Of a stretch of 64,000 nucleotides of DNA, positions 20,780 through 63,966 are shown in pieces. Below the pieces are notes generated by a model that did no database searches, was not told the origin of the DNA, and was given only the letters and a program-made list of their open reading frames with translations. Both the position numbers and the translations under genes were made by a program. How positions within the stretch are numbered: position 1 is the first letter of the stretch; every line of letters begins with the position of its first letter. The stretch covers positions 97,426 through 161,425 of the forward strand of contig JAIWND010000047.1 of assembly GCA_025330725.1 (NCBI GenBank), read 5' to 3'. The DNA is from Chlamydoabsidia padenii. Its lineage: Eukaryota; Mucoromycota; Mucoromycetes; Mucorales; Cunninghamellaceae.

Positions 20780-21064
20780 CTAAAAAAAGTAACGGCGAGA
20801 CGACTTGTGCTAAATGATTATCCGATTGGCGAGACGGTTTTTAGCCAATGAGAAGCGATAAAAATCAGGGTCCTTAATACATGAGCATCCCCAACGCACT
20901 TTCCAAAAAACTTTTTCAAATTTGACTAAATTTCAGATTTAGAAAGTCACCAAAATGGAAGTCCCAATGGACTTTCTCTGAAATTTCCATCAGACTCCCA
21001 AATAAACAAATAAAATGAAAATGAAAATAAAATAAAAAAAAGTGTACCTGAAAATACTTTAAAA

Positions 21065-22397
21065 ATGAACCATTCTGACATCGCTACCATTATCGCTGCC
21101 CATCGCGCCATCAAAAGAAAACGCAGAGACTTCTTGAATGATTGCATTTTAGCAGTAGTTAAAGAAGAAGAAGATGCCGAAGGGGTTCGCCCTGATGGTT
21201 CAGTGGTTCGACACCGCATCATTAACAGGTATCGTACGGATGGCAACGAACGTATCATGAGGGACTACTTTGCGGAACGACCTGTGTACACCGATGAACT
21301 TTTCCGCCGTAGATTCCGAATGCGTCGTACATTGTTTATGAAAATCATTGAAGATGTCACAGCATTTGACGATTACTTTGTTCAAAAGCGTGATGCAGCG
21401 CATGAGCTCGGTCTTTCCCTTATGCAAAAGATCGTTGCTGCGTGTCGTCAGCTTACACTTGGAGTTTCGGCGGACACTTTTGATGAATATGTACGTATTG
21501 GTGAAAGTACAGCGATGGAATGCTTGAAGAGGTTCTGTTGTGCTGTTGACGCAATTTACGGAAAAGAGTATTTGAGGCGTCCAACTCAAGAAGACGTTGA
21601 TAGATTGCTGATCGAGGGAAAGGAAAGGGGGTTTCCTGGAATGCTTGGTTCTCTGGACTGTATGCATTGGACATGGAAGAACTGTCCAGCTGCTTGGAAA
21701 GGGCAGTTCCAGGGCAGAGGGAAAGAAGCAACTGTTCTACTAGAAGCTGTAGTTTCTAAAGACTTGTGGATCTGGCATGCCTTTTTTGGTGTTCCTGGTG
21801 CTCTGAATGACCGTACTGTCCTGGACCGGTCTCATCTTCTCAGCGAAGCCGCGGAAGGCACCAGCCCTATAGTTGACTTTCGTGTCAACAACAATCAGTA
21901 CACTCAGGGTTACTACCTCACTGACGGCATCTATCCCACATACGCGACCTTTGTCAAATCACTGAAGGACCCACGATCCAACAAACAAAGTGTATGTATA
22001 TATCTCCTGTGAATTTTATGATAAGTATATTAACATTTCTTGTGATGAATAGCTATTTGCAGCAAAACAAGAAGCAGTTAGAAAGGATGTGGAGCATGCG
22101 TTTGGTGTTTTGCAAGGCCGCTTTGCAATCATCAAGCAAGGTGCACGAGTGTGGAAACTGGAAGACATGCATAAAATTATGTATGCATGTGTCATTCTCC
22201 ACAACATGATAGTAGAAGATGAACGAGAAACTGGGGATTTTGAAAAGGTGGCATTTGATACTTCGTTGACTCAACAAAACGGAGGCACCTTCGACAATTA
22301 CCTCCGCCGATACCGTGAAATCAGGGGCAGCAACCAGCATGTGCAATTGCGAGATGATTTGATAGAGCATGTATGGAATTTATATGGAGACGAATAA
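21065..22397 (+). CDS. Harbinger DDE transposase, plant-like clade (inner element)
   Basis: Catalyses excision and insertion of the inner element in the nucleus. Two exons (21065-21991 and 22053-22397) join in frame to 423 residues. An N-terminal part has RRRFRMRRTLFMKIIEDV. The DDE_Tnp_4 core shows GMLGSLDCMHWTWKNCP (first Asp), HAFFGVPGALNDRTVLDRS (second Asp), and YYLTDGIYPTYATFVK then EHAFGVLQGRFAI (last acidic residue), ending MHKIMYACVILHNMIVEDE. The LDCMHW...WKNCP and SKDLWIWHAFFG strings are typical of plant Harbinger proteins and differ from the outer element's transposase. No stop or frameshift is visible, so it may be active if its partner protein is supplied. Confidence 0.93.
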
Positions 22398-23425: not shown

Positions 23426-23816
23426 GAGAAATGGTCTGTTAATTTTTATTGAAAATTGTGTTTGGAAATTTCTACAGACTTTTTATTTTTGGAAAGGCGG
23501 GGACTACAAAAAGTGGCAAATCTACATTTGGAACGTCGTTTGGAAAGTCCATTGGGGTGCACTGGCTTTCCAGATTTGAAAAATTTTCAAATGTAGAAAC
23601 TCCGTTGGGGATGCTCTTACAACCCCCACAACGGGATTTAAATAAAAAATCGGTCTTTTCAACTCACCTTTTTTTACTCTTCTTCCGTTCACTTGCCTTT
23701 TTTAACTTTAACTCCTGCAAAAAAAAAAAAAAAAAAAAGAGAGTTAAAAAGAGGACCCAACCTATTTTCTACATATTCTTTTTATTTTACTTATCTCACT
23801 TTATTATACTCGCAAC

Positions 23817-24734
23817 ATGCCTCGAAACAACTGGAACGACGAAGAAACTCAGGCCCTCATTGCTGCAATGGCTCTCCATTACAGGTCCATTGAATCAGCA
23901 AACAGCAACCATTCCAAGAATGAAGAATATGTCAGAATGAAGACATATTTTGAAACTGCCATGGGTGCAAGAAGTGTTGGTAAAACTCTGGACGCTATCA
24001 AGCACAAGTGGGTCATCTTGATAAGGAAATTCAAGGATATCAACGATGCCGTCCGGCGAACTGGAAGCGGTGGCCTGCCAGGTCAACAACGGTGGGCGTA
24101 CTATGATGCCATGCTCGACATCCTCCGCGATGATCCCAATGTTTTCCCTGTGGTAGAATTTGATTCTCTCCGGCCTGAGACTTTGGTCAACCTACTGGAT
24201 GTAAACGAAAGTGAAGAAGACGAAGAAGACGAAGTTGACCAAGAGGGGGAAAGAAGGGGTCATCCTCGTCGTAGCGTTTCTTTTTTTTCTCCGACACCAA
24301 CTTCAGCATCAGCACCAACTCCAGCAACAGCAACAACCAGACGCCGGCAACGTTTACCTGGTAGTATTCATGACTCTGTGGTGGCAAGCTTTGTGGACGA
24401 AAGGATCTTGCACCGTGACCATACCTCCAGGTTATTCACGGAGTTCAATGAAGCCGCACGCCAAAGGCATGATGAACTTCTCGCTCATCATCAAGTTGTC
24501 GAGGAACGAAGGTCTCGGGAACGGCAGCAAATCATTGGTCTTCTGGAGCGACTAACTCAGCCAGTATCTAGACAGCCAATGCCTAGCTCCTACCCACCTA
24601 CACCATCTCGAATACAATCATCATCGCCTTCACCATCTTCATCTTCATTTCGCCCTCCTGCCCCCCGTGTCCAAACCAGATCACCATCCACCAATCCTAC
24701 TGTGCCCCCATCCCATTCCCATCAAGATAACTAG
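23817..24734 (+). CDS. Myb/SANT-like protein of the outer Harbinger element
   Basis: A single-exon, 305-residue frame. The N-terminus is a trihelix/Myb-like domain: RNNWNDEETQALIAAMALH, KTLDAIKHKWVILIRKFKDI and GQQRWAYYDAMLDILRDDP, with the regularly spaced tryptophans of SANT domains. It is followed by an acidic stretch (NESEEDEEDEVDQE), a Thr/Ala/Ser-rich linker, a coiled-coil-like helix (EERRSRERQQIIGLLERL) and a Pro/Ser-rich tail. In Harbinger elements such a protein binds the terminal repeats and carries the transposase into the nucleus. The frame is intact and the gene faces the transposase at 24850-26351. Confidence 0.85.
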   Translation: MPRNNWNDEETQALIAAMALHYRSIESANSNHSKNEEYVRMKTYFETAMGARSVGKTLDAIKHKWVILIRKFKDINDAVRRTGSGGLPGQQRWAYYDAMLDILRDDPNVFPVVEFDSLRPETLVNLLDVNESEEDEEDEVDQEGERRGHPRRSVSFFSPTPTSASAPTPATATTRRRQRLPGSIHDSVVASFVDERILHRDHTSRLFTEFNEAARQRHDELLAHHQVVEERRSRERQQIIGLLERLTQPVSRQPMPSSYPPTPSRIQSSSPSPSSSSFRPPAPRVQTRSPSTNPTVPPSHSHQDN

Positions 24735-39660: not shown

Positions 39661-40475
39661 TCTGGACCTCCCAAGTTTGCTCAAGTCTACTTCTATGATG
39701 CTCAAGAACAGCTACAACACCGAACTTCTTTGAAAGTCATTTACAACCGACGACTATTGCAGTTCTTCAGCAAATCATAACTGAACACAACCCATATGCT
39801 ATGGAAATCTTATCTGCATACCAACATTATGGATCCAAGCCGATATCGAATCTAATGGTGCGTATCAGAAGTGGACGACAATTGGGGAGACGGTACAATG
39901 CTCAGACATATCCAGAAGTGGCGGCTCTGGTAAACGAAATCTCAACTGATGGCACATTCTCCGAACACGACATCATCATCCACGAACGATCCTCTGGTCT
40001 ACGGCGAATAAACTCTCTGCATTCCTCCTACATGGCACTCCATTATACTTTGATGTTTTCATTTAGTAAAGATGGATGGTCTCCGAAAATGCAATCTATT
40101 GGGTCTACCAACGAAATCTCTATCCGGGGTTACTGTGCCTATATGCTGATGATACGCGACGATTACTATATTCACCATTATGATCGACTCTTCCAGCAGT
40201 ATGTTGTTGAAAATTATGTACGAATTGAAGCCCATCGTCTAAATTATTTTGCACTCAACCGGAAACAATTTCGATCTGAACTATATAGCGGGTTTGGTGA
40301 TGATGCTAATCCTCGGCAAATTGGGCGATCTATCATACTTCCGGCGTCATTCCACGATGGTCCTCGATTTATGCCGGAAAAGCTTCAATACTGTCTAGCT
40401 ATCATTCGACAAAAGGGAAGACCATCACTCTTCATCACTGTCACTTGCAATCCAAAGTGTGTACGACCGCCCTGA
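39661..40475 (+). pseudogene. Helitron helicase-like N-terminal fragment
   Basis: An open frame of 224 residues from 39801 encodes the Helitron_like_N domain: MRIRSGR-type start, a block with RLFQQYVVENYVRIEAHRLN, GRSIILPASFHDGPRFMPEK and SLFITVTCNPKCVRPP. The same-strand DNA before it (from about 39661) seems to be older coding sequence with stops. No Rep tyrosine motif or PIF1 helicase follows: the frame ends at 40475 and an LTR copy starts at 40500. It is therefore a truncated rolling-circle transposon remnant next to the EME1 promoter. Confidence 0.8.
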
Positions 40476-40499: not shown

Positions 40500-40735
40500 T
40501 GAAGTATGTGGGGTAGGGAAACACAAAAAAAAACGAGAACTGTTATTACCCTTTATTTTTATGTTATTTAAAAGATGAATAATAAAGTGAATCGAAGATA
40601 ATAGAAGAGACAAACTACTGCTGCTCATATAGGCGTTGATAAATTTCTAACTCGCTAATACGGCACCAATGGAAAGATGAATAGATCTCATAGATCTGAC
40701 TGCTGTTCGTCTACGTCGAAGGAAAACTTTTTACA
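40500..40735 (+). repeat. Truncated LTR, family B
   Basis: Begins TGAAGTATGTGGGGTAGGG and follows the sequence of the LTRs at 63008 and 63387 (and the reverse complement of 50053-50561) for about 235 bases, with several substitutions, up to ggaaaactttttacag. The rest of the 509 bp unit is missing. Confidence 0.8.
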
Positions 40736-40946: not shown

Positions 40947-42466
40947 TTACACTTTTCTGCTATCGATTTCTTTTATGTGTTTCACCATTGCCCGTTTAAT
41001 TTCGGAGTCTGTTTCGGTGTTCATTGGAAGAACTTCGATCATTCGCTTCAGTTTTTTGCGAACTTCGGCCACAGGCATTGTCTTATTGACAAATTGCACC
41101 TCTTCTTCTTCGTCTTTTTCGTCAGCTTCGGTGCTCGCTTCATCAATAGCATCATCAAAGCAGTAGTTGATGTCTTCCGATGTGATGAAGCCGGAACCAT
41201 AAATTGTCTCCAAAGAGCCGTCAATGGTTTCTTCAACTTCTTCTTCGTCGTCGCTTTCTTCTAAATTACCTTCTTCAGCAGTGATGGCAACTTGATCTTG
41301 GAAATGATGATGATTAAGGAGGGTGGTATGTTTGAAGCAATTTTGAATGGTACTGTTGGTGATTTCGAATTTCAAGATCGCATTTGTCCATGTCATAGCC
41401 GTAAGAATATCCACCTTAAAAAGGTTGTTTCGTTGGTGGCGCATAAACTTGTTTGCTGCATCTTTATACTGTCTTGAACGATATCTTTTTTTAAAGGTGG
41501 CAATGATACCAGCGTCAAGAGGTTGCAGTTTCGATGTGGTGTTTGGCTGGAATTTAATAATATGTAAATTTTCCAAATTAGAGAGCTGATTATGGAATGA
41601 AGCATTGTCCAGAAGTAAAACACACTTTTTGCCCTGATGTTTGGCACCAGCTGCCCGATCGATTATTTTGATCACTTGATTGAGTATGTCACTTGTCATC
41701 CATCCTTCTGTATTGTTGAAATATCGAAAACCAGAAGCCTTACCGGCGAAGCATCTTGGGCTCTTATGCTTATCAATGTAAATGGGATCGATGCGATGGG
41801 ACCCATCACCATTAACTACAATATCAACAGTAATACGGCTTTTATCAAGTTTTTCACCTTGAGCTTTTACACCTGATTGCACAATAGTTGTCCTGGGAGC
41901 AGCGCTGTAGAACAAAGCGGTTTCATCGAAGTTGTAAATCCGCTCGAAAGGATATTCACATAGCTGGGCTTGAATTTCCTTGACTTGTGATTGCATGGTC
42001 TCGTCATTCAGTCTAGGGGCGCTACCTGATTCACCATGAGCAGTGGATACCTTGAGTCAGTGCCTTCCCATAAAGCCATAAATCCAACCAAGAGAAAAAT
42101 CATGCGGCGGAGTTAATTTTTGTTTCTTGCATAAATCTTTTGCCTGATCGATCAAAAATTGATAATTGATGGCAATGTTATCATTTTGACAAACCAATAC
42201 ATGAGCATAAAGATGCTCCTCTACCATTTTTGTTGCGGCATCCACTGTGCGAGGTCGCTTTGAGTCCTTTTGGGTAGCTGGACGATTTTCCACATCATGG
42301 CGTCTTTTCAACATAGTAGCAATGCTTGGTTGAGAAATGACATGGTCCAAATTTAACTCTTTGGCAAACCAGATACCTAGATCCTTTTGGGTCATGCTTT
42401 TACATTCATCATTTGTTTTGTAAAGCTTCAGTAGTTGTTCGTTGGTGGGGCGAAAACGTTTGGCAG
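40947..42466 (-). pseudogene. pogo/Tigger-like transposase with a single stop codon
   Basis: One reading frame from about 42466 to 40947 encodes, in order, an N-terminal helix-turn-helix (RPTNEQLLKLYKTNDE, QKDLGIWFAKELN), a CENP-B-type second DNA-binding domain ending in FSLGWIYGFMGRH, and a complete DDE_1 core: YNFDETALFY, CVLLLDNASFH and TTSKLQPLDAGII (three aspartates), with an acidic C-terminus. A single TGA at 42057-42059 interrupts the frame after FMGRH; the frame resumes at once with LKVSTAHGESGSAP, which is the expected continuation. So it is a nearly intact enzyme with one nonsense change. No ATG opens the N-terminal part; the first is at 42395. Identical 14-base direct repeats (agaataacgatatt, 40802-40815 and 42602-42615) flank it. 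Confidence 0.9.
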
Positions 42467-42910
42467 GAGTTTGAGATATTTTATTATTATTATTGAATTA
42501 AAAGAGAAGGGATAATGTTTTTCTAATCAAATAACAGTAGCATTTAACTATAAAAAGGAAGGTTCCAGAAGTCGGGGCAAGAGCAGTCTGTATTCAAACC
42601 CAGAATAACGATATTTATGACAATAGTGATACAAATTGCCATTCCCGTACTACATAATTAACTAGAAATGTTATATATACAAAAGGACTAATACATGGGT
42701 TCTACAAATAGGAGAGATATTTATCTGGGGTGAGAGAGAGTGTATTGAGCTAGGGAAGATTATGTTTTCTTTCTTTTTCTTCTTTGTTTTATTAACTAGG
42801 GTTTGTATATAGTTGGGGTTCATTTGATGACATTTGAATGATATAGATGGCCAGTCTATTTATCCGAATCATCAGTAAATGTTAATTCATGCAAACATGT
42901 CAAGTGGGAC

Positions 42911-43662
42911 TTGAAAATTTTGAGACCGCTTTCTCTCTTTTACTCTACTACCCATTATTTCATGATACAACAGGTGGCTGAAATAGCTCGACAATTCAAA
43001 ACGACTAGAAAAAAAGTTTATGCGATTCTCAAGATCCATGAATCCAAAATGGCGAGATCGTGCGGAAGGAAGGGTCCGGACGCCGCCCAAAACTTTCTGA
43101 ATGTTATACATACCAGGTATCTTGTTGTGCGCAAAGTTGAAGCGGATAGAAAAACAAAACACAAATGAAATTGTGCGTGAATCGGGCCTTGGCCTGAGTG
43201 AGCGGACATTTCGGCGCATCTTGCATAAAGAAGACTATCACTCGAGAATTTGCAAGAAGAAGCCTCACCTGAGTACTTCTCACATCGCTCGACGACTTGC
43301 TTGGGCAAAAAAGCACCTTGAAGCACTGGAGAAAGGTGATATTTACCGACGAATCCAGCCCCGAAAAGGGGAGGAGTAGCAGGGTGCAACTATGCTGGCG
43401 AAAATCAGACGAGGCAAACCTCAAGGAGTGTACGACAGGTACCTTAAAGGGGAACAGAATGTCAAGAATGGTTTTGGGCGGTATGGCTTACAATAGGAAG
43501 ACGGAACTTGCCTCTTTCGAGAAGAATGGGAACAAGAGCCGGTGTTCTGCCAAGGATCTCGTAAAGGTGACAGCACTTGATGGTGACTGCACTTCTTTTG
43601 CCCACCACTCCATCACATACCGTTTGTTTTCTTTTCTTTTTGGCTGGAATAAACTTCAGTAG
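42911..43662 (+). pseudogene. Decayed Tc1/mariner-type transposase
   Basis: Plus-strand fragments in three frames: EIARQFKTTRKKVYAILKIH (helix-turn-helix, about 42980), ESGLGLSERTFRRILHKEDY followed by ARRLAWAKKHL (43180-43320), WRKVIFTDESS (first catalytic Asp, about 43330) and GNRMSRMVLGGMAYNRKTEL (about 43455). These are the consecutive landmarks of a Tc1-like enzyme; frame changes and a shortened segment after TDESS mark it as dead. The C-terminal DDE residues are not recognisable. Confidence 0.75.
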
Positions 43663-45042: not shown

Positions 45043-47156
45043 TATTGTCAGCCTAGTTTAATCAAAGAGTGAGAAGTAGAGTAAAGATGAAGAAAAACGC
45101 GAAAAGCGACTTTCAAACCCGAAATTCAAACAGCGCCTCTTTTTTTTTTTTTTTAAATTATAAAAGGCAGGATTCAAGCTTTTCTTTTCTTTTCATCTCG
45201 ACTAACCAGCGACCAATGATCATCACGAACAGCATCACCACTATCAACTAAAGTCATCAAAGGGAACGAAGCGAAACGACAAGCTGGTACTACAACTGCT
45301 AAAATGTGACAAACGTTTTTTGATCCAGTTGGTGCAACTTGAAGGTAAGAACCCTCCCCTTCTTTTTTTTTTCTTTTTTACTGACTGTTTTATTTCTGTT
45401 TAATAGGTATAGGTTTACGGCTCGCTCAATCTTACAGGCGACAACGGAGGGTAAGAGGGACATTAACATATTCATGCGATACACTCAACACAGAGACAAC
45501 TAATGTAGCCATGTTAGCAAGTGGGGGGTCTACTCTCTGCAACAATATCATCAAAAAGTAATTGAATAGGGTGGAACAGGACAGGATATTGTGCCTTGAA
45601 ACAAAAAAGTAGACATCGACCATCCTTCTTCATTTACGACATTGACTCTTTGATCCGGCCTGCGTTTGTGCTGTCGCAATTTGAAGCGATGCTACCAAAC
45701 AATAATACAGGCACTACCCAGTGAATCATGGCGCCACCTTTGACACTAGGAAGAACGGTGAACACATAACCTATTTGAGACCAATGAATAGTAGTATATT
45801 ATACCCATAGTTTTATATCATACCAATAAAATCAAACACTTTTAACTAAAAACCCTATCACTTATGATCGCCAAGCAATCTTCCCATTGATCGAATTGCA
45901 CATTTAGACAAGATGGATGTTGTATTACTATACCAACAGAAGAAGGAATGAGGGCTGATGCAATTGTCTCGGTCGTGTAAACGATAAATTAATAAAAGAA
46001 AGGTAAAGGTGAATAGTGGCAGAAAAACATTGAACGCGGTAAAATCAATAGGAGGAGATCGAAAAACGTTAAATAAGCCCTCTACTATGGTTTTCAGTAG
46101 TGTAGATAATCTTACACACCAGATAAGCTAACACTAAACCCGCTATACTGGTCATAGAGTGAGTAAAATAAAAGCTTTTATTAAAATGATAAGAGTAGTT
46201 TTTTTTTTCAAAAAAAAAAAGGGAGAGAGAGAGAAATCGGCATATTATTTAATGTGATTATTACAGTAGGAAGGTACCAATGGCAACAATGGATCATAGT
46301 CGAAGGTTATTACATGAATTAGTCGTCAAGAGAATAGTTACTGAAGAATGTTGACAAGGTTGCTGTTGAAAAAGCCTATTGTTAAGTGATAAAAAGTAAA
46401 AAGGTCAAGGAGCAGAAGTTACTAATTGGATTACCCTGTTGATTAATATACAATATACAATATCATGGTCGTGTTGATACCATGGTGACTGACCCTTGAT
46501 AATTACCTTTCACAACTGATATCATTACTATATTCTTGTTATGTTGCTCTTGCTGACAGTATCAAAAAAAAAAAAGAGTCGAGTTGATGGTTATTGTGTT
46601 GTCGTTCATAGAATAAACAAAAGCCTTCCCTTTTACGTTTACCTTGTTTGTAGACTTCATTCAAAAGTACATTCACAGTTGTTAATCTCGTTGCGTTAAT
46701 CTTGTAGTCCATATCAAAAGAAGAGTCCAATTAACGATTGTTGTCTGGTTAATCCCAAAACATTATTTAGAAAAAAAAGAAGCGTTAATTACACGATTAA
46801 AAAGAAAACAGTAAAGATAAAGAGTCAGATTAAAAAGTAAGGTTAAAGAGTAAGAGTAGAATCCAAAAGGATAAAAAAAAAAAAAAAGAAGATGAAGAAG
46901 TATCAAACTTCAAAAAGAATAAGAAGTTTGTGAAGGGGGAAGAAGAAAAGAACGGGGATTAAAAGTACTTTTTTAAATTTTCGACTTCCAAGCTAGCGGT
47001 AAAATAAGTTTGTTCTAAATGGCTAGAATAGATCTAGACTATCTTGATACTTGGTTTTGATAATTCAACTTTTATTTCTTTGGGAAAAGTTGTCTTGCAT
47101 TCATTCCATTCCTCATAATACAATATGCCAACATTGGGGCCAATCATCAAGTCATA
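45043..47156. other. Gene-poor AT-rich stretch
   Basis: No gene that I can support. Two weak coding-like segments exist: on the plus strand KRNDKLVLQLLKCDKRFLIQ spliced to GIGLRLAQSYRRQRR (about 45263-45449), and on the minus strand DSSFDMDYKINATRLTTVNV (about 46730-46665), each ended by a stop soon after the next splice signal. The remainder is A/T homopolymers and spacer. Confidence 0.3.
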
Positions 47157-47237
47157 CTGTACCAAAGTGTCTCCCTCCCCCCCACACCCCCATCCCTTCT
47201 TTGTTTACATTCATATATAATACAGTCTTTCCGCCGT

Positions 47238-47360
47238 CAATTGGTCGCTTTTTAAATTTCAATTGGACACTTTCGTAACTCCCAATTGGTCGATATTTTG
47301 AGCCTCAATTGGTCAGTATTTTGAGTCTCAGTTGGTCACCTTTTTCGAAACCAATTGGTC
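47238..47360 (+). repeat. Subterminal array of six CAATTGGTC motifs
   Basis: Six copies of CAATTGGTC or one-base variants (CAATTGGAC, CAGTTGGTC), spaced about 20-25 bases, lie 80-200 bases from the element's tip. The mirror set occupies 54225-54347. Clusters of short motifs near element ends are usually transposase-binding sites; the function here is inferred. Confidence 0.8.
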
Positions 47361-47672
47361 ATACAACTTGCTTTCACTTCACAGAATCCAGTAGAACAAG
47401 AGATTCGTATTTGAGTGATAATGCAACTGCCACCATCAGGATGTTTATCGTTCGAGAACTCCGTTGCTTTATTTAGTCTAGTTACAGGAAAGCTGTTAGC
47501 GTATATATTTTTTGGCTTGGTGATTACCTACCACTATATCAAGATAGTCAGTTTTTAATTCGAATACTTTTGACCTCTTCGTATATAAGAATATTTTCAG
47601 GCAATTTGTTTATACTATGCATTACATGTTAAACTTTCCAACAAAAATATGTTATATATTATTTTAAGTATT

Positions 47673-48404
47673 TACAGGTTTATCAGTATATCAATTATCT
47701 TGGAATCCAATGGGTCGGCGGCTTCGTATAAATTATGTAATTTTACTTTAAGTGGTTTACGGTCAGACTTTTCATTTACACTCTAAAAAAAAAAAAAAGA
47801 ATGCAAGCTGTGGGAGTAAGTTAGATGTGATTATTAGACACTCACTCTGAAGATGTTGATCAATTCAATAAATAAATTCTTCTCCATTTTTATAAGAGTC
47901 CCGTGTGAAACTCTTGAATATTATTGAGTCCGATTACATCTGACATTGCTTGGTCATGTTGGTCTTTTAGCAACAATACTGTGTGATATAATGATCTAAA
48001 TTGATGATATTACTTAGAATCCGTACTAATGAATGATATGTATAGAGCCTACTTACAATAACTCATGAATAGCGGCGTTAATAAATAAACCAGAGGATCT
48101 TGCTTCCTGATATGAGTTTAATTGAAATTTCTTAAAGCTATCGCTAAAACCATAGCCATTTTCAGTACATTATGTAGTCCAAGCTTATTCTGCAGAATTG
48201 ATATCTCTTCAACAGAAAGCAGAAAGTGAGTCGAGTTAGTTCCGTGTGGTAGACTTCTCTTGACAACGACTACCTTTTCTTTGTTCCTTTGCATCTTCAG
48301 AATTACGATTTACTATTCTAGGTTGGGTACGTGTGAGTGTAAACTCCAGCTTCTTAGTGATATGACGGTAAACTGTTGATTCGTTTATTACTAAATCTTT
48401 TACA
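47673..48404 (-). other. Outward-reading coding-like segments in the left arm
   Basis: Mirror image of 53181-53912, so it reads identically but on the minus strand, away from the core. See that entry for the segments. Confidence 0.4.
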
Positions 48405-49721
48405 ATGCCAGGTCATCAACATATTCTTCAATAAATTGATATGGATTGTATTAAATAAGACTTAAATGTCTTTACTATATATTTGTTAAAGAAATAGAAA
48501 TATCAAATCCAGAATTTCAAGGTTCTTGGGATATACTCTAAGGGATATAATAATTGAAACTTTTCTAATGAGGCCAGCCTTGATTTGTTAACACTATGAA
48601 TGGTACATAATGACATCGTTTATCTGTTATTTTTTTTATGTGAAAATCAACAATGGTCCAGGAACAGTACCTGAGTGCAATCACCCTTGTCAGGTCCAAG
48701 GGATCAGCTAAATTGTTATTATTAAATAATGATCTTAACATGTGCAGTGCAGTATAAAGGCTTTATAGGTTTCTTGGTATTCTCTCAAAAGTACTAGCTC
48801 AAACACATTTAAAAATAGCAAATATCTCCAGCCTCATTGCCATATTAATATTTCCTATTGGTAAAAGTAGATCTAATATAATATTATTGTATCCATAACT
48901 ATACAAAATACTACCTTGGCAAGTGGCTTCTGGTAGCTACATAAATGTCGAAACAAAGAGCCCATGTAATGGCACAAATGACTTAAATCACAATGCACAG
49001 ATAAGAATCAGGTAAGAAATATCAGACCAAATATAGATGTATTTGCAACGATGATAATTTTTTATTAACAAGGCAGTACAATGCGAAGTGAAACTACATC
49101 GATAGTTAGTTAAGATAATCGTTTTTGAATTGGAGATATTCGTCTATCACATTTGTAATTTCGCATAATAATCAAGCCATAGAATGATGGGATACAAGCA
49201 ATAAAAGAGCGGTATTCAAGGCCTGTAAGTGTGAACAGCACAGTTTTTTGACTTTCCTATAATCCGTCTATGACTGAAAAGAAAACGGCGAATTAGTTTG
49301 CGTATTCATTGAATCATATACCTGACAAGAGAAAGAAGGTCATTTCCCACTCCCAGCTGGGACAGCAAATGCTACAGCAATTACTTATCAAGGCTAGGAA
49401 ATTTCTCCGGCGTAGGGCAGGGTTCATATGTACACTTGTCATCATGCTTTTCTTGCCAAATTATAAAACTAATTAGGTATGCACTTATCTTTTTGGTGGG
49501 CAAAGATGATTTCTGAAATCAATTCAGAAAGAAAAGATAGAAAAAAAAAAGTAATACAGCGCGCAAAACAAAACTAGGCCCATAACGAAATTGATGATTT
49601 TTTTTTGACGCAAATCATTTTTGCTGTGTGAAATCAAAAGATATCGTGTTCCTTTGCCTCACTAATGACAGAGAATAATTTTCGAAGTTCTTTTGATAAA
49701 AAAATAAGGGATAAACTTTAT

Positions 49722-52407
49722 ATGAAAGGTAAAGCACTTTTATCTTCAAAAATATTTGATTGCATACGTTTTATTTTCATTTTCATTTTTACTTATTATT
49801 TTGTATAGATTTTTGGACCACTGAACCATGCGATTGGACCATCACAAATTATTTAATCAAGCTATTTGCTCAAGACCCTGCACTCACCAGATGTAGCGCA
49901 TCCAACAGGCTCATTAATGACTCGACGATAATTAAAAATCATGTGATAGCAGGCACAATCGCCGAGACAATGGCCAGTACGATGTCATCCTTTACGCAGG
50001 TCAGTAAATTTTCATTATGATTATTATTTTTACTGTCGTTAACCAGTCCTTATGTCGTATCAGGCATTACTACCCAACTGCGAAATTAGCTTCTATGAAA
50101 CTTGACGACTAGAAATAAAGAATCTGACCCTCAAATAAAGTCTCACATACTTAAGGTAGCATGAGTAATGATGATTTAACTTCCGCTCCCAGAAAAAAAG
50201 GAGTCAGGAGACATTTCAAGGTACGATCGCGTTTAGTAATCGATGATATGAAACCAAACCTATTAAATACTACTTCTTCTTTTCTTCTTCGCAATTAAGA
50301 TCTTTGGTACAATCTTTTACCAATTAAAAAGTTTTCCTTCAACGAAGAGGAACAGCAGTCAGATCTATGGGATCTATGCATCTTTCCATTGGTGCCGTGT
50401 TAGCCAGTTAGAAATTTATCAACGCCTATATAAGCAGCAGTAGTTTGTCTCCTCTATTATGTTCATCACTTTTTATTATTCATTCTTTAAACAACATAAA
50501 AATAAAAGGGTAATAACAGTTCTCGTTTATTTTTGTGTTCTTCCCTACCCTATATACTTCACCTTACAGAATTCAAGAGGAAAAAAAAACATTTAATGCG
50601 TTTTTTGTCAACCACGCCACCCAAATGACTCAAGAAACGCTGAAATACGGTGTTCAAAAGGTAATATGAATATTTTGCATTCCTGCACTTAGTGAAATTG
50701 AACGCGAATACTCATTTTTATACCAAACAATGAATCTGTAGACTCGATTAAAAAGTGCTATGGCTGAACAAGTGGCCAATGAAGAAGAAAAAGAAAATGC
50801 TAGGAAACGGCCAATGGATGGTAACGATTGTGAAGGAGGTCCAAGTCGCCGTACTAAAGCAAGTAGAAGGAAGGTGTGTACTGTGATTGATGACAATCAA
50901 ACTAGCGAACAAGATGATGACTATGACCATAATGACAGCGGTGATGATAAAAAGGACAGTATTTGGGAAGAATGGAAGCAATTCCTTGACGACCAGGAAA
51001 ATATGAATTGTTTCATGCAACTGAGGTAAAAAGAGTACTATGTGGCAACAATTACGTGCTCTTACTTTTTATTATATTTAGCCCCGAAAGGCATAAAGTG
51101 ATTTGGTGTGGAAAGCTAGTTCGACGGAGAAGCTGTCTATCTCCTGAACTATATGACAAGCTAAACCAGGAAATACCATTAGTCACGATGCAGGATATAA
51201 ACCCATGTCTTGCCGAGATGTCCAACGCTGTATTCGATGCGGTATGTCGTTATCAGCGATGGAGTTAGGAATAAGAACATTTAAATTTTCTAATATTATA
51301 GGAATCCAACACTGAAATGCAAAGCTGTATTGAACTACTGAACTGTATTGTGCTCGATGATCCAGTCTTTATTGCAGAAAAAAAACTGATTGTCGATATT
51401 TGTCGCACTTTGTAAGTGAAAGTAGTAAAGACTTGAAGATATACTCAATTGCAATGCTTTTTTTTTTTTAGAAACGACTATATATATGACAATTGTGGCC
51501 TCGAAGTACTTCAAAGTCTGAATCGTGCTACCGGTCTTATCTATTTGATAAGTGTTTGATGGCTACTACCAAATATTTACGCAATGTCAACCACGACGTT
51601 ACCTTCTTTCCAGGAGAAATTGAACTCAACTCCATGACCACACAACTAAAACAGAAAGGAATGAATGATGGCCGATATAAATACAATGCTGATGGGACGC
51701 TCATAGCCAATAATTTCTCTGCAATTGAAATCCTTTTGACCGAAGTGTCGTCTGGCTATGGCTCAAATGAGGCTGGTAAAATAAGCTTTGACCATTATAA
51801 AGCCATGTTTGGGATGTTGGCAATGATACGAACAGTAGCGCAGTTATGCGAAAAAGCCTCATTCAATATTTTCGCAAAATTGAAAATCCATTTCCTGCAT
51901 GCCCATGGTAAGTGACTCGTGAAATACTATGTCTAAGTGCATTTGGAGTTATTAACTGTATTCTTATTTTGCATAGGCAATTCCATCAGACATTGGTCAA
52001 TGTCAACACAGGCACCCGGCATCTATATCATGACCAAAGAGCAGAGGGTGAATGTTCCTATCAGTTTTTCTGAAAAAGATATTACAATTCTTCCGTTTAT
52101 TTGCTTCTTTAAAACACTTGCTGTAAGTTGGATAGCCCAAAGGCATGATTTAACTAGAGAAAGACTGTACTAAGCCATAGTATTGAGAATATAGATTGCT
52201 TGCGAGGAAACTTTATCAGTGCTGAAGGAACTGAGACAAGAACATAAGACCATTTTACGATCAAAGGGCCAGAGGCCACAAAAACTTTCCAGTATCATAA
52301 ATCCAACAATCATTCGCTTAAATGAAGGAAAGCATACAAGTATTGTAACAGAGCATGGCCCTATGAGCGTACCCAACAGTCCTAATCCATATCCCGTTCA
52401 AACATGA
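49722..52407 (+). pseudogene. Core gene of the palindromic element; possible PD-(D/E)XK-like protein
   Basis: A spliced gene of about 600 codons. Usable exons: 49722-49728, 49809-49999, about 50571-50660, 50742-51025, 51082-51241, 51302-51411, about 51475-51909, about 51977-52122 and about 52197-52407. It begins MKDFWTTEPCDWTITNYLI; a basic/acidic region (ENARKRPMDGNDC, EQDDDYDHNDSGDD) follows, then SPERHKVIWCGKLVRRRSCL. The later part has FFPGEIELNSM, RYKYNADGTL, AIEILLTEVSSG and KISFDHYKAMFG, an Asp-Gly ... Glu ... Lys/Asp/Lys spacing that resembles PD-(D/E)XK nucleases seen in large Mucoromycota protein families; this is inference. The frame is broken twice by single bases, an A9 run at 50581-50589 (eight would fit) and a short A run near 51518, and an LTR sits in an intron. 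Confidence 0.55.
50053..50561 (-). mobile_element. Solo LTR, family B, complete (509 bp)
   Basis: Runs TGTCGTATCAGG...TATATACTTCA, with TG/CA ends and a perfect 5 bp target duplication CCTTA (50048-50052 and 50562-50566). It lies in an intron of the core gene; the duplicated target re-creates the acceptor ccttacag directly after the LTR. Same length and sequence as the LTR at 63387-63895, which is in the opposite orientation. Confidence 0.92.
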
Positions 52408-52485
52408 TTACCCCCCGCCAAAGTAAACTACCCATAATAAATATATACATTGGTAATAACTCCTTGTTATCTCAAAAAACTGTCT

Positions 52486-54428
52486 ATGTAGTTTCACTTC
52501 GCATTGTACTGCCTTGTTAATAAAAAATTATCATCGTTGCAAATACATCTATATTTGGTCTGATATTTCTTACCTGATTCTTATCTGTGCATTGTGATTT
52601 AAGTCATTTGTGCCATTACATGGGCTCTTTGTTTCGACATTTATGTAGCTACCAGAAGCCACTTGCCAAGGTAGTATTTTGTATAGTTATGGATACAATA
52701 ATATTATATTAGATCTACTTTTACCAATAGGAAATATTAATATGGCAATGAGGCTGGAGATATTTGCTATTTTTAAATGTGTTTGAGCTAGTACTTTTGA
52801 GAGAATACCAAGAAACCTATAAAGCCTTTATACTGCACTGCACATGTTAAGATCATTATTTAATAATAACAATTTAGCTGATCCCTTGGACCTGACAAGG
52901 GTGATTGCACTCAGGTACTGTTCCTGGACCATTGTTGATTTTCACATAAAAAAAATAACAGATAAACGATGTCATTATGTACCATTCATAGTGTTAACAA
53001 ATCAAGGCTGGCCTCATTAGAAAAGTTTCAATTATTATATCCCTTAGAGTATATCCCAAGAACCTTGAAATTCTGGATTTGATATTTCTATTTCTTTAAC
53101 AAATATATAGTAAAGACATTTAAGTCTTATTTAATACAATCCATATCAATTTATTGAAGAATATGTTGATGACCTGGCATTGTAAAAGATTTAGTAATAA
53201 ACGAATCAACAGTTTACCGTCATATCACTAAGAAGCTGGAGTTTACACTCACACGTACCCAACCTAGAATAGTAAATCGTAATTCTGAAGATGCAAAGGA
53301 ACAAAGAAAAGGTAGTCGTTGTCAAGAGAAGTCTACCACACGGAACTAACTCGACTCACTTTCTGCTTTCTGTTGAAGAGATATCAATTCTGCAGAATAA
53401 GCTTGGACTACATAATGTACTGAAAATGGCTATGGTTTTAGCGATAGCTTTAAGAAATTTCAATTAAACTCATATCAGGAAGCAAGATCCTCTGGTTTAT
53501 TTATTAACGCCGCTATTCATGAGTTATTGTAAGTAGGCTCTATACATATCATTCATTAGTACGGATTCTAAGTAATATCATCAATTTAGATCATTATATC
53601 ACACAGTATTGTTGCTAAAAGACCAACATGACCAAGCAATGTCAGATGTAATCGGACTCAATAATATTCAAGAGTTTCACACGGGACTCTTATAAAAATG
53701 GAGAAGAATTTATTTATTGAATTGATCAACATCTTCAGAGTGAGTGTCTAATAATCACATCTAACTTACTCCCACAGCTTGCATTCTTTTTTTTTTTTTT
53801 AGAGTGTAAATGAAAAGTCTGACCGTAAACCACTTAAAGTAAAATTACATAATTTATACGAAGCCGCCGACCCATTGGATTCCAAGATAATTGATATACT
53901 GATAAACCTGTAAATACTTAAAATAATATATAACATATTTTTGTTGGAAAGTTTAACATGTAATGCATAGTATAAACAAATTGCCTGAAAATATTCTTAT
54001 ATACGAAGAGGTCAAAAGTATTCGAATTAAAAACTGACTATCTTGATATAGTGGTAGGTAATCACCAAGCCAAAAAATATATACGCTAACAGCTTTCCTG
54101 TAACTAGACTAAATAAAGCAACGGAGTTCTCGAACGATAAACATCCTGATGGTGGCAGTTGCATTATCACTCAAATACGAATCTCTTGTTCTACTGGATT
54201 CTGTGAAGTGAAAGCAAGTTGTATGACCAATTGGTTTCGAAAAAGGTGACCAACTGAGACTCAAAATACTGACCAATTGAGGCTCAAAATATCGACCAAT
54301 TGGGAGTTACGAAAGTGTCCAATTGAAATTTAAAAAGCGACCAATTGACGGCGGAAAGACTGTATTATATATGAATGTAAACAAAGAAGGGATGGGGGTG
54401 TGGGGGGGAGGGAGACACTTTGGTACAG
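52486..54428 (-). repeat. Right arm of the palindromic element (1,943 bp)
   Basis: Reverse complement of the left arm, ending GGTACAG before TA at 54429-54430. Equal length to the base shows that no insertion or deletion separates the arms. Confidence 0.9.
53181..53912 (+). other. Outward-reading coding-like segments in the right arm
   Basis: A helix-turn-helix-like segment ESTVYRHITKKLEFTLTRTQ continuing PRIVNRNSEDAKEQRK (about 53202-53311) resembles the N-terminus of Tc1/IS630-type transposases of fungi. Downstream are SFKKFQLNSYQEARSSGLFI joined over an intron (53527-53588) to SLYHTVLLLKDQHDQAMSDV, and MEKNLFIELINIFR (53698-53739) joined over an intron to KSDRKPLKVKLHNLYEAADP and a stop (53910-53912). 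Stops separate the pieces, and no DDE motif is seen. It looks like the relic of a spliced gene, present twice because it lies in the repeat. Confidence 0.45.
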
Positions 54429-54744
54429 TACCTTTGGTTCAAAGCTTGGGAGCCAATCAACGGTCTGCGGAGATCAAAAATTAGATCCAAAAATCGGGAC
54501 TGCCCATGTAAAATTTTTCCTTTTGTTATTTTTTCTAACTTCAACTAATCAAGGCGCATCATCGCTCATGGAATCAAGTAAATCTGGTGCATCAAACTAA
54601 TGAAGATGTCATAACGAAGAAAAAGTTGGTACTGACTGTTGCCTATTCAGAGTGGGAACTAGTTGAATCAACAGATCTACTATTTAACTCTTTTTCGTCA
54701 TGACATCTTCATTAGTATATAAATCTAGCCCTTGTTTGAACCAG
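54429..54744. other. Spacer with a short inverted repeat
   Basis: Bases 54597-54622 (actaatgaagatgtcat...) and 54692-54717 are inverted copies around a 70-base loop. The loop holds agtgggaact, a motif repeated in the tandem array that follows (54887, 55212). Confidence 0.5.
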
Positions 54745-57120
54745 GTAATCAAAAGAAATAGATAATGTATGCTTCTTGGCTAATGACATTTCTTTCCTTA
54801 ATCTTTTATAGTACAGCTTATCTTCGGATCAAGTCGCCTCCTTTGTTGACAAGAAAGGGTTAGTAATATCATTGTTAATTCAGAGTGGGAACTTGTTGAA
54901 GAAACAGATACTATTTAACTCTTTCTAGTCATGGTACCTTTTTGGTTTGGTCAAGTCTCTTCCCATGTTTGTACCAGGTAATCAAAACAAACAGAATATG
55001 TATGTTTCTTGTGTGTTGTCATATTTATCTTTTATCTTTTATAGGACAACCTATCATTGGATCAAGTGGACTGTCTTTGGATCAAGTTGCCTCTCGTGGA
55101 TCAAGTCTCTTCTATTGGGTCAACTTACCTGCTCTTGAATCAAGTGGTCTCCCTTTAATCAAGTCGCCTCCATTGTTGGCAAGAAAGGGTTAATAATATC
55201 ATGTTAATTCAGAGTGGGAACTTGTTGAAGAAACAGATACCATTTAACTCTTTCAAGTCATGGTACCTTTTGGTTTGGTCAAGTCTCTTCCCTTGTTGGG
55301 TTCAGGAATTCAAAAGAAATAGAGTATGTATGGTTTTAGGCTTACTATTCATTTTTTCTTAATCTTTTTGTCAGAGTCCTCCCCGGAAGGGTAGAGAGGA
55401 TCGAATAGTTCCAACACAAAGGAAGAAACGGAAACAGGAACAGGGACAGAAGACATGGCAAGAGTAAGTTAAATAAATAAGTTTATACAAAGAGAAAAGG
55501 GAGTTATAATAATAAAATGAGTTGTCAGGATACAGATCAAATAGAATGGGGAAAAGGTGGGGTATTTATACTAATTCTACGATCTAATAATAAGGTTGAT
55601 GGAAAGTTCAAGATGGAAGTAATAGATCAAGTGGTCGTGGCGCAGATGGATGATCATTGCAGATCGTTTCAGGTTTAGATGGAAGTGTTTCAGGAATGTT
55701 AATCAGGTGGTCCAAGCGCAGTAATAAGAAGATAATTAGATCATGTGGTACAATGAGAAGTAAATCGGATCAAGTGATTAAGGTTTGACAGATGCCTTGA
55801 TTTGGCGAGATCGGGTCATCACACTTTTATAGTACATACATTTGAATCAAGCTGCCCCCCGTGGTTCACGTCATGCTACCTTTTGATTTGGTCAAGTCTC
55901 TTCTATTGTTGGTATCAGGAAATCAAAAAAGTAGAGTATGTATGGTTCTTGGCTTACTATTTTTTTTAAATCTTTTATAGCACATACATTTGGATCAAGC
56001 TGCCTCTCATGGATCAAGTCATGGTACCTTTTGGTTTGGTCAAGTCTCTTCCCTTGTTGGATTCAGGAATTCAAAAGAAATAGAGTATGTATGGTTCTTG
56101 GCTTACTGTTATTTTTTCTTTAATCTTTTATAGTACATCCTTCCTTTGGATCAAATTGCCTCTCGTGGATCAAGTCATGCTACCTTTTGATTTGGTCAAG
56201 TCTCTTGCCTTGGTGGTATCAGGGATTCAAAAGAAATAGAATGTGTATGGTTCTTGGCTTACTATTATTTTCTTCTTCAATCTTTTATAGTGCATCACAC
56301 CTTTGGATCAAGCTGCCTCTCGAGGATCAAGTCATGGTGCCTTTTGGATTGGTCAAGTCTCTTCCCTTGCTGGATTCAGGAATTCAAAAAAATAGAGTGT
56401 GTATGGTTCTTGGCTTACTATTATTTTCTTCTTTAATCCTTTTTAGTACATCACATCTTTGGATCAAGCTGCCTCTCGTGGATCAAGTCATGGTATCTTT
56501 TGGATTGGTCAAGTGTCTTCCCTTGTTGGATCCAGGAAACCAAAAGAAATAGAATATGTATGGTTCATGACTTACTATTATTTTTTTCTTAATCTTTTAT
56601 AGTACATCACATCTTTGGATCAAGTCATGGTACCTTTTGGTTTGGTCAAGTCTCTTCACTTATTGGTATCAGGAAATCAAAAGAAATAGAATATGTATGG
56701 TTCTAGGTTTACTATTTTTTTCCTTTGATCTTTTATAGTACATCACATCTTTGGATCAAGTCATGGTATATTTTGGTTTGATCAAGTCACTTCCTATGTT
56801 TGTACCAGGTAATCAAAACAAACAGAGTATGTATGGTTCTTGTGTGTTGTCATATTTTTTTTTTATCTTTTATAGGACACCCCATCATTGGATCAAATTG
56901 ACTGTCTTTGGATCAAGTTGCCACTCGTGGATCATGTCTCTTCTATTGGAACAAGTTGCCTGATCTTGGATCAAGCCGTCTCCCTTGGGGCAATTCTCTT
57001 CTCGTGGATCAAGTCGCCTCACATGGGTCAATTCTCTTCTCGTGGATCAAGTTTCCTCTCATAGATTAAGTCTTTTCCAATGTGTGTACCGGATACTTAA
57101 ATGAAGTAAAGTGTATAGGC
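54745..57120. repeat. Tandem array of exon-intron-like units
   Basis: About eleven diverged copies of a unit of roughly 135-165 bases in the clean part (55,900-56,900), longer elsewhere. Each unit has a part rich in GGATCAAGT words, then cag/g(a/g/t)attcaaaagaaatag, gtatgtatggttcttgg, a T-rich stretch and ttttatag/tac. The last two look like an intron end and start of the next exon. The exon part can be read as LDQAASRGSSHGTFWFGQVS in most units. Units differ by substitutions, so the array is old. No overall open frame persists after joining. Confidence 0.8.
55369..55823 (-). mobile_element. Solo LTR, family A (455 bp)
   Basis: Begins TGTCAGAGTCCTCC and ends GGGTCATCACA on the plus strand (TG/CA ends), flanked by the perfect 5 bp duplication CTTTT (55364-55368 and 55824-55828). 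Removing it restores the array text aatcttttatagtacat. Read on the minus strand it starts TGTGATGACCCG and has a TATA-like agtataaatacccc, so the element's promoter probably faces that way. No sequence relation to LTR family B. Confidence 0.9.
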
Positions 57121-61885: not shown

Positions 61886-63007
61886 AAATGTCTTCAAGAT
61901 ACGCTTTCGAAAAAGCTCGGACCACATATGCTTGAAATGATGGGTAAACATCACTGGATCACGCCAAGGCTCATCATTTGGACCAAGAGACCTAACTTCA
62001 GGTGCAAAGTCGTTGCAGGTAGCAGGTAAATGTCATAAAAATAGAAGGCTCACCGTAGGCACGGAACATAGCCATGAGATTCAAAAACCTTTGCCTTTTA
62101 TATGAGAAGCCAGAACGAACAGTGTGAGGAATCGCCGAGGTGATGTCCTCCCGGATGATTGTTGTACCAGGCAAATGGATGTCTTCAACCGTCAGATTAC
62201 CCAATTGTGAGGCCTTTACAGTACGCTGACTGTGCCCGTGGATAGCCACTTTTTCCAACAGGTCAGCAACAAAAAAGACAAAGGAGATCGATTGACCAAA
62301 TCGGCGGTCCACTGGGTGCATGAGAAGCATCTTGCAATGTTCCTTAAACGTCAATTGATATCGGTTGCTGTACATGGGAGCACCAGTGCCGTCAGGGAAC
62401 AGCCAAGGGAAAAGCAAAACAAAGAGGCGGTCATCAGTGTAGGCAATTTTGGCGTGGCCAGCTTCACCAATGGACAATCTTTCAAACCTTGAGGCCATAT
62501 TACTGGCAGAAGGAGCAACATCTTGTGCAGGTACGACCATGTTTTCGTTCCACCCCAAGCTTTCCATCCTTCGAGTTACGTTCACCACAAAAAACGTACA
62601 AGTTCTGTTACTTCAGGAGAGCCAAAGTTGTTGAGTGTGGAATTCAAGCGACAGAGTTGCTCCCAAGCTTCATTCACTTTGGTTACATTGATGTCTAAAA
62701 ATAAAGCAATACTTTTGAGTACATATAAAGTGCTCCTTGTTTAATAAAAAAAAAGCTTACCTGCAGTTGATTCATCAGAGTACTGAAGCCCATAGGACCC
62801 ATCGTAAAGTCCAGCAAACTCATAGTTGTAGGTCGCATTAACAGACCCTGCCAAATGATAATGACCAATTGCACCACCTCCAACAGACTTCAACTTGGTG
62901 ATCGTGGAAAAAATTTTGATAGGAGAGAGGCATGACAAAGAGCGATGATTCATCCTCAAAGTGATTTCCAATTGAGGGGAGGGGAAATCGGGCAGAGCAT
63001 TGTCTTG
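61886..63007 (-). pseudogene. Helitron helicase-like fragment, second lineage
   Basis: Minus-strand segments: QDNALPDFPSPQLEITLRMN and GGGAIGHYHLAGSVNATYNY (63007-62760), an exon with NVTKVNEAWEQLCRLNSTLN (about 62690), then the main frame 62588-61998 with AYTDDRLFVLLFPWLFPDGT, LTFKEHCKMLLMHPVDRRFG, IPHTVRSGFSYKRQRFLNL and SIFMTFTC, and across an intron-like gap DPVMFTHHFKHMWSELFRKR (about 61930). This order is the Helitron_like_N domain. The 5' end is cut by the LTR at 63008, and no Rep or helicase part follows. The sequence differs clearly from the fragment at 39661-40475. Confidence 0.75.
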
Positions 63008-63386
63008 TGAAGTATATAGGGTAGGGAAGAACACAAAAATAAACGAGAACTGTTATTACCCTTTATTTTTATGTTGTTTAAAGAATGAATAAAAAGTGAT
63101 GAACATAATAGAGGAGACAAACTACTGCTGCTTATATAGGCGTTGATAAATTTCTAACTGGCTAACACGGCACCAATGGAAAGATGCATAGATCCCATAG
63201 ATCTGACTGCTGTTCCTCTTCGTTGAAGGAAAACTTTTTAATTGGTAAAAGATTGTACCAAAGATCTTAATTGTGAAGAAGAAAAGAAGAAGTAGTATTT
63301 AATAGGTTTGGTTTCATATCATCGATTACTAAACGCGATCGTACCTTGAAATGTCTCCTGACTCCTTTTTTTTCTGGGAGCGGAAG
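63008..63386 (+). repeat. Truncated LTR, family B (379 bp)
   Basis: The first 379 bases of the 509 bp family B LTR, ending cggaag directly against a complete copy. It begins at the broken end of the Helitron fragment. Confidence 0.85.
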
Positions 63387-63895
63387 TGAAGTATATAGGG
63401 TAGGGAAGAACACAAAAATAAACGAGAACTGTTATTACCCTTTATTTTTATGTTGTTTCAAGAATGAATAATAAAAAAGTGATGAACATAATAGAGGAGA
63501 CAAACTACTGCTGCTTATATAGGCGTTGATAAATTTCTAACTGGCTAACACGGCACCAATGGAAAGATGCATAGATCCCATAGATCTGACTGCTGTTCCT
63601 CTTCGTTGAAGGAAAACTTTTTAATTGGTAAAAGATTGTACCAAAGATCTTAATTGTGAAGAAGAAAAGAAGAAGTAGTATTTAATAGGTTTGGTTTCAT
63701 ATCATCGATTACTAAACGCGATCGTACCTTGAAATGTCTCCTGACTCCTTTTTTTCTGGGAGCGGAAGTTAAATCATCATTACTCATGCTACCTTAAGTA
63801 TGTGAGACTTTATTTGAGGGTCAGATTCTTTATTTCTAGTCGTCAAGTTTCATAGAAGCTAATTTCACAGTTGGGTATTAATGCCTGATACGACA
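63387..63895 (+). mobile_element. Complete LTR, family B (509 bp)
   Basis: TGAAGTATATAGGG...GATACGACA, 509 bp, nearly identical to the reverse complement of 50053-50561. Flanks are ggaag and ttatc, so there is no target duplication; it may have inserted in, or recombined with, the preceding partial copy. Confidence 0.88.
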
Positions 63896-63966
63896 TTATC
63901 CCCTGCCAGTCTTTTTCATAGACGACTTTTATTGTTGAGTAGCAGGTAATTTAGAAGGTATAGATA

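Follow-up and report, generated by a model that had tools for sequence, protein, structure and literature searches.

An element with identical 1.9-kb inverted arms and TA flanks in Chlamydoabsidia padenii, probably a decayed Tc1/mariner-type transposon

Transposons of the Tc1/mariner type usually end in terminal repeats of tens to a few hundred bases, and the arms of bacterial composite transposons of the Tn10 type are whole insertion sequences, inner ends included. Galileo carries a P-type transposase and makes a longer target duplication. In this member of the P superfamily from Drosophila, the inverted ends reach up to 4.2-4.7 kb; both repeats have taken in internal sequence, more than 500 bp of the transposase open reading frame (ORF) included, and share remains of other transposons, one copy holds tandem repeats, and template switching during gap repair is given as one origin of defective copies (PMC4168063). 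Here we analyze a stretch of 64,000 nucleotides from the fungus Chlamydoabsidia padenii (contig JAIWND010000047.1, positions 97,426 to 161,425; hereafter the window), which contains a 7,272-bp element made of two identical inverted arms around a core, with TA on both sides. We consider it probable that this is a non-autonomous, partly decayed, TA-inserting DNA transposon of the Tc1/mariner type, whose arms grew by inverted copying of one side onto the other. In one study, each of the Mucorales genomes contained more than 200 Tc1/mariner copies (PMC7928374).

Base-by-base comparison of the arms with their own reverse complement found 1,943 of 1,943 bases the same. The structure is therefore real and lies where the initial annotation had placed it, as a 7.3-kb element with equal, apparently identical arms, TA on both sides and a 3.4-kb core (3,386 bp; Table 1); its suggestion that such arms imply a recent event or gene conversion between them is supported. 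Beyond the tips, the inverted repeat runs outward by just two more bases, the palindrome TA. A repeat scan returned the same arm pair as 47155-49118 and 52467-54430, reaching 19 bp further into the core with five mismatches there. The tips read CTGTACCAAAGTGTC (in short form CTGTACCAAAGTG) and start with CTGTACC, between flanks that end in ...GTCATA and begin with TACCTT.... The G+C content is 33% in the arms, 37% in the core and 36-38% in the flanks. Chance cannot account for an exact inverted repeat of 1,943 bp, which supplies the terminal inverted repeat expected of IS630-Tc1-mariner elements; as in foldback-type elements, inverted repeats make up most of the element (3,886 of 7,272 bp). 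The TA at both ends is weak evidence by itself (1 in 16 as a two-base extension), but L069, L070 and L075, further elements of this genome that are described below, are also TA-flanked at both ends.

No ORF of 80 codons or more was found inside the arms, which hold only relics of transposases. A hidden Markov model (HMM) built from 17 transposase ORFs of the same genome was compared with 2,071 six-frame segments of the window, and its best matches were a 58-codon segment in each arm (E=2.4e-6; next match, 0.041), where it recognized the DNA-binding part of a Tc1-like transposase. Several single transposases also matched this stretch (E from 4e-4 to 0.06), and a Pfam search of it gave no match. 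Near the inner end of each arm, and facing the opposite way to this relic, a further short stretch corresponds to the 3' end of the DD34E transposase genes in two loci of the genome, L013 and L068. Thus, the arms contain at least two pieces of transposase debris, exactly mirrored in both. Closer to the tips, six CAATTGGTC-type sites follow each other at intervals of 22-23 bp, a regular spacing that suggests putative protein-binding sites. Single-strand folding of a 204-nt end of the element was unremarkable (z -0.93).

Elements with giant arms were also found elsewhere in this genome. A search for the DDE_3 domain (PF13358) gave 87 matches, some of them as opposite-strand pairs, and all three close pairs examined (L068, L069 and L070) have an arm-core-arm structure; this proportion is not a genome-wide rate, because L068 to L072 were chosen for their paired DDE_3 matches. 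Their arms, of 1,480 bp in L068, about 1,750 bp in L069 and about 1,840 bp in L070, carry inward-reading DD34E Tc1-like transposase sequence and extend beyond its stop codon. Only in L070 is the transposase a single unbroken frame (449 codons, in both arms); in L068 and L069 it is split over two overlapping frames, by a frameshift or an intron. The two arms of L068 differ by two substitutions and one 2-bp indel (0.14% substitutions), those of L069 are the same over the first 1,713 bp and differ by one 4-bp indel in a tandem repeat, and those of L070 are the same over the first 1,591 bp; further in, over some 250 bp, they differ in 34 columns, 31 of which lie at or beyond position 1734. Between L069 and L070 the arms differ by 13.9% substitutions, whereas the compared arm stretch has none within each element, and L068 differs from a near copy on contig C41 by 0.46-0.58%, more than its own arms from each other. 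These data fit equally arms that are often made anew and arms that are rewritten from each other. The cores of L069 and L070 are 23% alike over 348 matched residues and lie in opposite orientation; to judge from these comparisons, arms and cores seem exchangeable, with cores swapped between arm sets.

TA followed by CAGTC stands at both ends of L069, L070 and L075 and at the right end only of L068, whose left outer tip was not found. L075, chosen like L076 and L077 for its core gene, is a short-repeat form with 171-bp ends, one transposase and one core gene; the scan that found its repeats found no inverted repeats in L076 and L077. A fourth arm pair on contig C27 (L055/L063; 2,010 bp at 96.4%) was viewed at the arms only. 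The two opposite transposase ORFs of L071/L072 (C37:150001-156000 and 161001-167000) lie 12.5 kb apart and are 99.8% identical over 1,121 bp. Both ends of this match fall within the ORF, the sequence on either side differs, and the two form no clean arm pair. The wider finding is the presence of giant-arm Tc1-like elements in this genome.

Like Galileo, the elements of C. padenii have very long inverted ends, with internal sequence and debris of other transposons in both repeats; they differ in superfamily, in the TA target site, in the fungal host and in retaining an orphan core gene (PMC4168063). The arms in the window are 100% identical, against 97.5% in Galileo copy 147 (PMC4168063), and those of L068-L070 reach past the transposase stop codon, unlike the repeats of Galileo. 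With its TA flanks and Tc1-like relic, the window element is not a Galileo. The foldback element Tetris resembles it in plan, in lacking an intact transposase, in having internal tandem repeats and in possible homogenization, and differs in its target duplications of 8-10 bp, in having no conserved ORF and in being placed near Mutator by its authors (PMC4079207). With L068, L069, L070 and L075 the window element shares an orphan core gene and Tc1-type transposase sequence, with L069, L070 and L075 the TA flanks, and with L068, L069 and L070 the giant arms; it differs from all four in its CTGTACC tips, in holding relics only, in being apparently single copy and probably in the family of its core gene. 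In a literature search, giant-arm Tc1 elements in fungi were not recognized among the matches listed, which does not show that none exist. The initial annotation had raised a new class of large mobile element; given the TA-flanked DD34E giant-arm elements in the same genome and the Galileo precedent (PMC4168063), this is too strong, and the window element is a new variant, not a new class.

The initial annotation also described a spliced core gene that is not a recognized transposase, and what we found is an orphan gene with nine exons that belongs to a Mucorales family. Its homologs read through at the position of its frameshift, which may be real or a sequencing error. There are 52 homologs (119 with a profile), and those named by organism come from genera that we take to be all Mucorales; Pfam searches gave no convincing family. 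The closest are two Rhizopus arrhizus proteins, P0001 with 94% identity over 309 aa and P0102 with 89% over 473 aa, and P0002 of Mucor circinelloides is 84% identical over 352 aa. In a comparison over one set of 210 residues, identity to the core protein was 90% for P0102 and 79% for P0164 of Absidia cylindrospora. Since the A. cylindrospora protein is the more distant one, although Absidia belongs to the family of the host (Cunninghamellaceae), this comparison hints at horizontal transfer or hidden paralogy. A low-confidence structure model of P0002 (predicted local distance difference test score 62), examined for a PD-(D/E)XK nuclease fold, gave no useful match. Paralogs on contigs C11 and C24 have 33-43% identity, and an inverted-repeat scan of stretches of 9 and 8 kb around them, run with the low-complexity filter on, found none at E<=1e-5.

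When the core was compared with the assembly, its one full match was itself, and the other 32 of 33 matches were copies or pieces of a repeat of ~510 bp (19 of them 356-518 bp long with 93-99% identity, the remaining 13 shorter and 89-100% identical). The copy in intron 2 of the core gene is probably a solo long terminal repeat (LTR), because it starts with TG, ends with CA and has CCTTA on both sides. More copies lie within the window at 40500-40733 and 63007-63896.

The core proteins of L068-L070 share, by eye, a ...RPD...GE[AI]KP... motif, and some give C2H2 finger signals. Of 25 core-gene clusters of the giant-arm family, the two query loci included, 12 have a DDE_3 match no more than 3 kb away, against 0.37 expected from uniform random placement, an expectation that transposon clustering makes too low. 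The core family of L068 (P0053-P0097, homologs drawn from the best 8,000 of a larger candidate set) has no precomputed Pfam domain and, where named, comes from Mucoromycotina. A structure model of the L068 core (A2) resembles mitoribosomal chains and, less so, restriction enzymes. A possible PD-(D/E)XK nuclease fold (restriction-endonuclease-like, with D...ExK) was considered for this protein, and the core gene of the giant-arm elements is perhaps nuclease-like.

In the explanation that we favor, the CTGTACC... tips would be recognized by a DDE-type transposase, which would excise the window element and insert it at TA, leaving a TA on each side. The TA, the tips, the relic and the other elements are what leads us to infer such cut-and-paste movement. 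One side of the element, together with older transposon debris, would have been copied in inverted orientation onto the other to give the 1.9-kb arms; the simplest route would be a template switch from one end to the other while the excision gap was repaired, and this would be possible because the two ends were presumably already homologous in inverted orientation. The arms would since have been kept identical by youth or by gene conversion from arm to arm, and the core would have retained an orphan Mucorales gene. The exact arms with TA at both ends, the Tc1-like relic in both arms and the iterated subterminal sites all argue for this explanation, as do the giant-arm elements L068-L070, the TA-flanked tips of L069, L070 and L075, the nearness of core genes of that family to DDE_3 matches, and Galileo as a precedent for taking internal sequence and transposon debris into both repeats (PMC4168063).

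Several results weigh against it. The tips differ from the CAGTC tips of L069, L070 and L075, and the relic points outward, whereas the transposases of L068-L070 point inward; the window element is therefore not one of the CAGTC-tipped DD34E family. Of a DDE/D transposase the element has only the 44-aa relic in each arm, and no partner with the same tips was found in the assembly. Profile comparison of the window core with the giant-arm cores was weak (hhalign E 1.2e-4 and 5.7e-5, probability 55 and 38); the profile score was 26.3, compared with 10.9 for the best of 40 column shuffles and 3.2 for a reversed profile. The exact 15-base tip has two matches in the 34.2-Mb assembly, both of them the ends of the element itself; the arm sequence matched nothing in the assembly except the two arms, and a two-site CAATTGGTC-type pattern was found in this element only. 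The family thus appears to be single copy, which leaves its mobility unproven. A looser search for TA followed by the tip (15 bases, at most two mismatches) gave 84 sites, including the element's own two, against 138 for a reversed control, a chance level. One extra exact match (C23) and a one-mismatch site (C45) gave no blastn match to the window arm; beyond this, their sequence was inspected by eye only. Searches of viral contigs, for the tip and for P0001, and of phages, for the arm, gave nothing, the fungal DNA covered being this genome alone.

An empty site was sought at the locus itself, where the left flank ends in ATCAAGTCATA, the right flank starts with TACCTTTGGTT and the adjoining array has units reading ATCAAGTCATGGTACCTTTTGGTT. 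In the window, blastn found no match spanning the joined flanks, and these aligned with an array unit only with a 3-base and a 1-base gap, at a score of 26 that 27 of 500 random joins also reached, which also counts against movement. The alignment is suggestive of an element that sits in one such unit. A dense array of related repeats occupies 54645-57088, directly right of the element. Our confidence in the favored explanation is slightly reduced because these empty-site tests were negative or weak. The initial annotation had held that tips found only here, with no empty allele and no other copies, would speak against a mobile element, and this objection stands in part, since neither another copy nor a clean empty site turned up in this assembly. 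The element works like IS630-Tc1-mariner transposons and is not a proven member; it is most likely a mobile-element remnant, although its movement is not proved by a further copy or an empty site.

Among the alternatives, a local inverted duplication, through a replication template switch or palindrome formation and with no transposition, survives best and is still improbable. It accords with an apparently single-copy element with no clean empty site, and two matching flank bases come cheaply, so that the TA could be coincidental. It leaves unexplained why the repeat ends at TA and then a tip with regular subterminal sites, and why TA-flanked giant-arm elements exist elsewhere in the genome. 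Selection on a domesticated locus, in which host use of the hairpin or of the core gene and not recent movement keeps the arms identical, is a good deal less probable; the similarity of the core protein to that of R. arrhizus and the identity of arms with decayed content speak for it, and the frameshift in the core gene speaks against it, unless this is a sequencing error.

A composite transposon, with two complete inverted Tc1-like copies mobilizing the DNA between them, had also been proposed in the initial annotation. Like Tn10-type composites, the window element has inverted arms around a cargo, its arms contain Tc1 debris, and L069 and L070 have related arms around cores so dissimilar as to look exchangeable. 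Unlike them, it has no inner ends: close to where its arms meet the core (within ~60 bp), the best match to the tip departs from it at 6 or 7 of 15 bases, the exact tip was found nowhere else in the genome, and in L069 and L070 no further exact CAGTCATTTC stands where the arms end inward. The arms, in which an ORF of even 80 codons is missing, are therefore extended terminal repeats and not complete transposons, and this proposal is very doubtful. Least credible of all is an assembly artefact from a chimeric or fold-back read or from collapsed arms, since, even if consensus polishing could help make arms perfectly identical, a fold-back would give neither a unique, non-palindromic 3.4-kb core nor different flanks exactly at TA and tip, and other loci have the same plan with small arm-to-arm differences.

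Table 1. Positions of the window element and its parts (window coordinates)
Feature	Position	Strand	Basis or detail
TA, left flank (putative target duplication)	47155..47156	.	sequence
Left arm, 1,943 bp	47157..49099	+	reverse complement of right arm; the two arms are the sole matches in the assembly
Left tip, CTGTACCAAAGTGTC	47157..47171	+	exact matches in 34.2 Mb: 1 forward and 1 reverse, none outside the element
Six subterminal CAATTGGTC-type sites, putative protein-binding	47238..47360	+	starts 47238, 47260, 47283, 47306, 47329, 47352
Relic, DNA-binding part of Tc1-like transposase, 44 aa matched, left arm	48239..48412	-	HMM
32-bp stretch, 30/32 bases as in 3' end of DD34E transposase genes (L013, L068)	48941..48972	+	
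Core, 3,386 bp	49100-52485		between the arms
Core gene, nine exons, one frameshift at ~51509-51525	49665..52407	+	splice model by eye and homology
Core-gene exons	49665-49728, 49809-49999, 50580-50660, 50742-51025, 51082-51241, 51302-51411, 51472-51907, 51977-52122, 52195-52407		
Probable solo LTR, 509 bp (TG...CA, CCTTA each side), in intron 2 of core gene	50053..50561	.	
Right arm, 1,943 bp	52486..54428	-	arm comparison and assembly search
Mirror of 32-bp stretch, right arm	52613-52644		
Relic, DNA-binding part of Tc1-like transposase, right arm	53173..53346	+	HMM
Mirror of CAATTGGTC-type site array, right arm	54225-54347		
Right tip, CTGTACCAAAGTGTC	54414..54428	-	exact-match search of assembly
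TA, right flank	54429..54430	.	sequence

Other transposon-related sequences were observed in the window. On the minus strand, an ORF at 40950-42497 encodes a DDE_1 (PF03184) transposase, which we take to be pogo-type and which is the only one found in the genome; a Tc5-type DNA-binding domain lies upstream in the same frame, with one in-frame stop codon between, and no solved structure was matched by its sequence. A distance of 4.7 kb separates its near end from the window element, and it was considered as the mobilizing enzyme; no tip-like sequence (at most 4 of 15 mismatches) was found around it, and it is a lead only. On the plus strand, ORF fragments at 42842-43659 look by eye like the relic of another Tc1-type transposase, an ORF at 39699-40472 has a Helitron_like_N domain, and a Plant_tran transposase ORF (21014-22009; presumably Harbinger-like) and a Myb/SANT ORF (23748-24731) possibly form one two-gene element.

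A bolder reading, which we regard as speculative and unlikely, would make this plan a recurrent transposon design in Mucorales. Tc1/mariner-type elements would carry transposase sequence in both kilobase arms and swap cores between arm sets, and a nuclease-like core protein would cut or nick, letting each arm serve time and again as template for its partner. In the window we would then see an old lineage of this design, without a transposase by now and with arm conversion still going on. If true, that design would keep the arms identical and give each element two transposase copies together with hairpin-forming DNA. The growth and homogenization of transposon ends are directly testable in this genome, with at least three elements that have transposase sequence in both kilobase arms and with the window element, and a set of unannotated Mucorales proteins is tied to mobile DNA.

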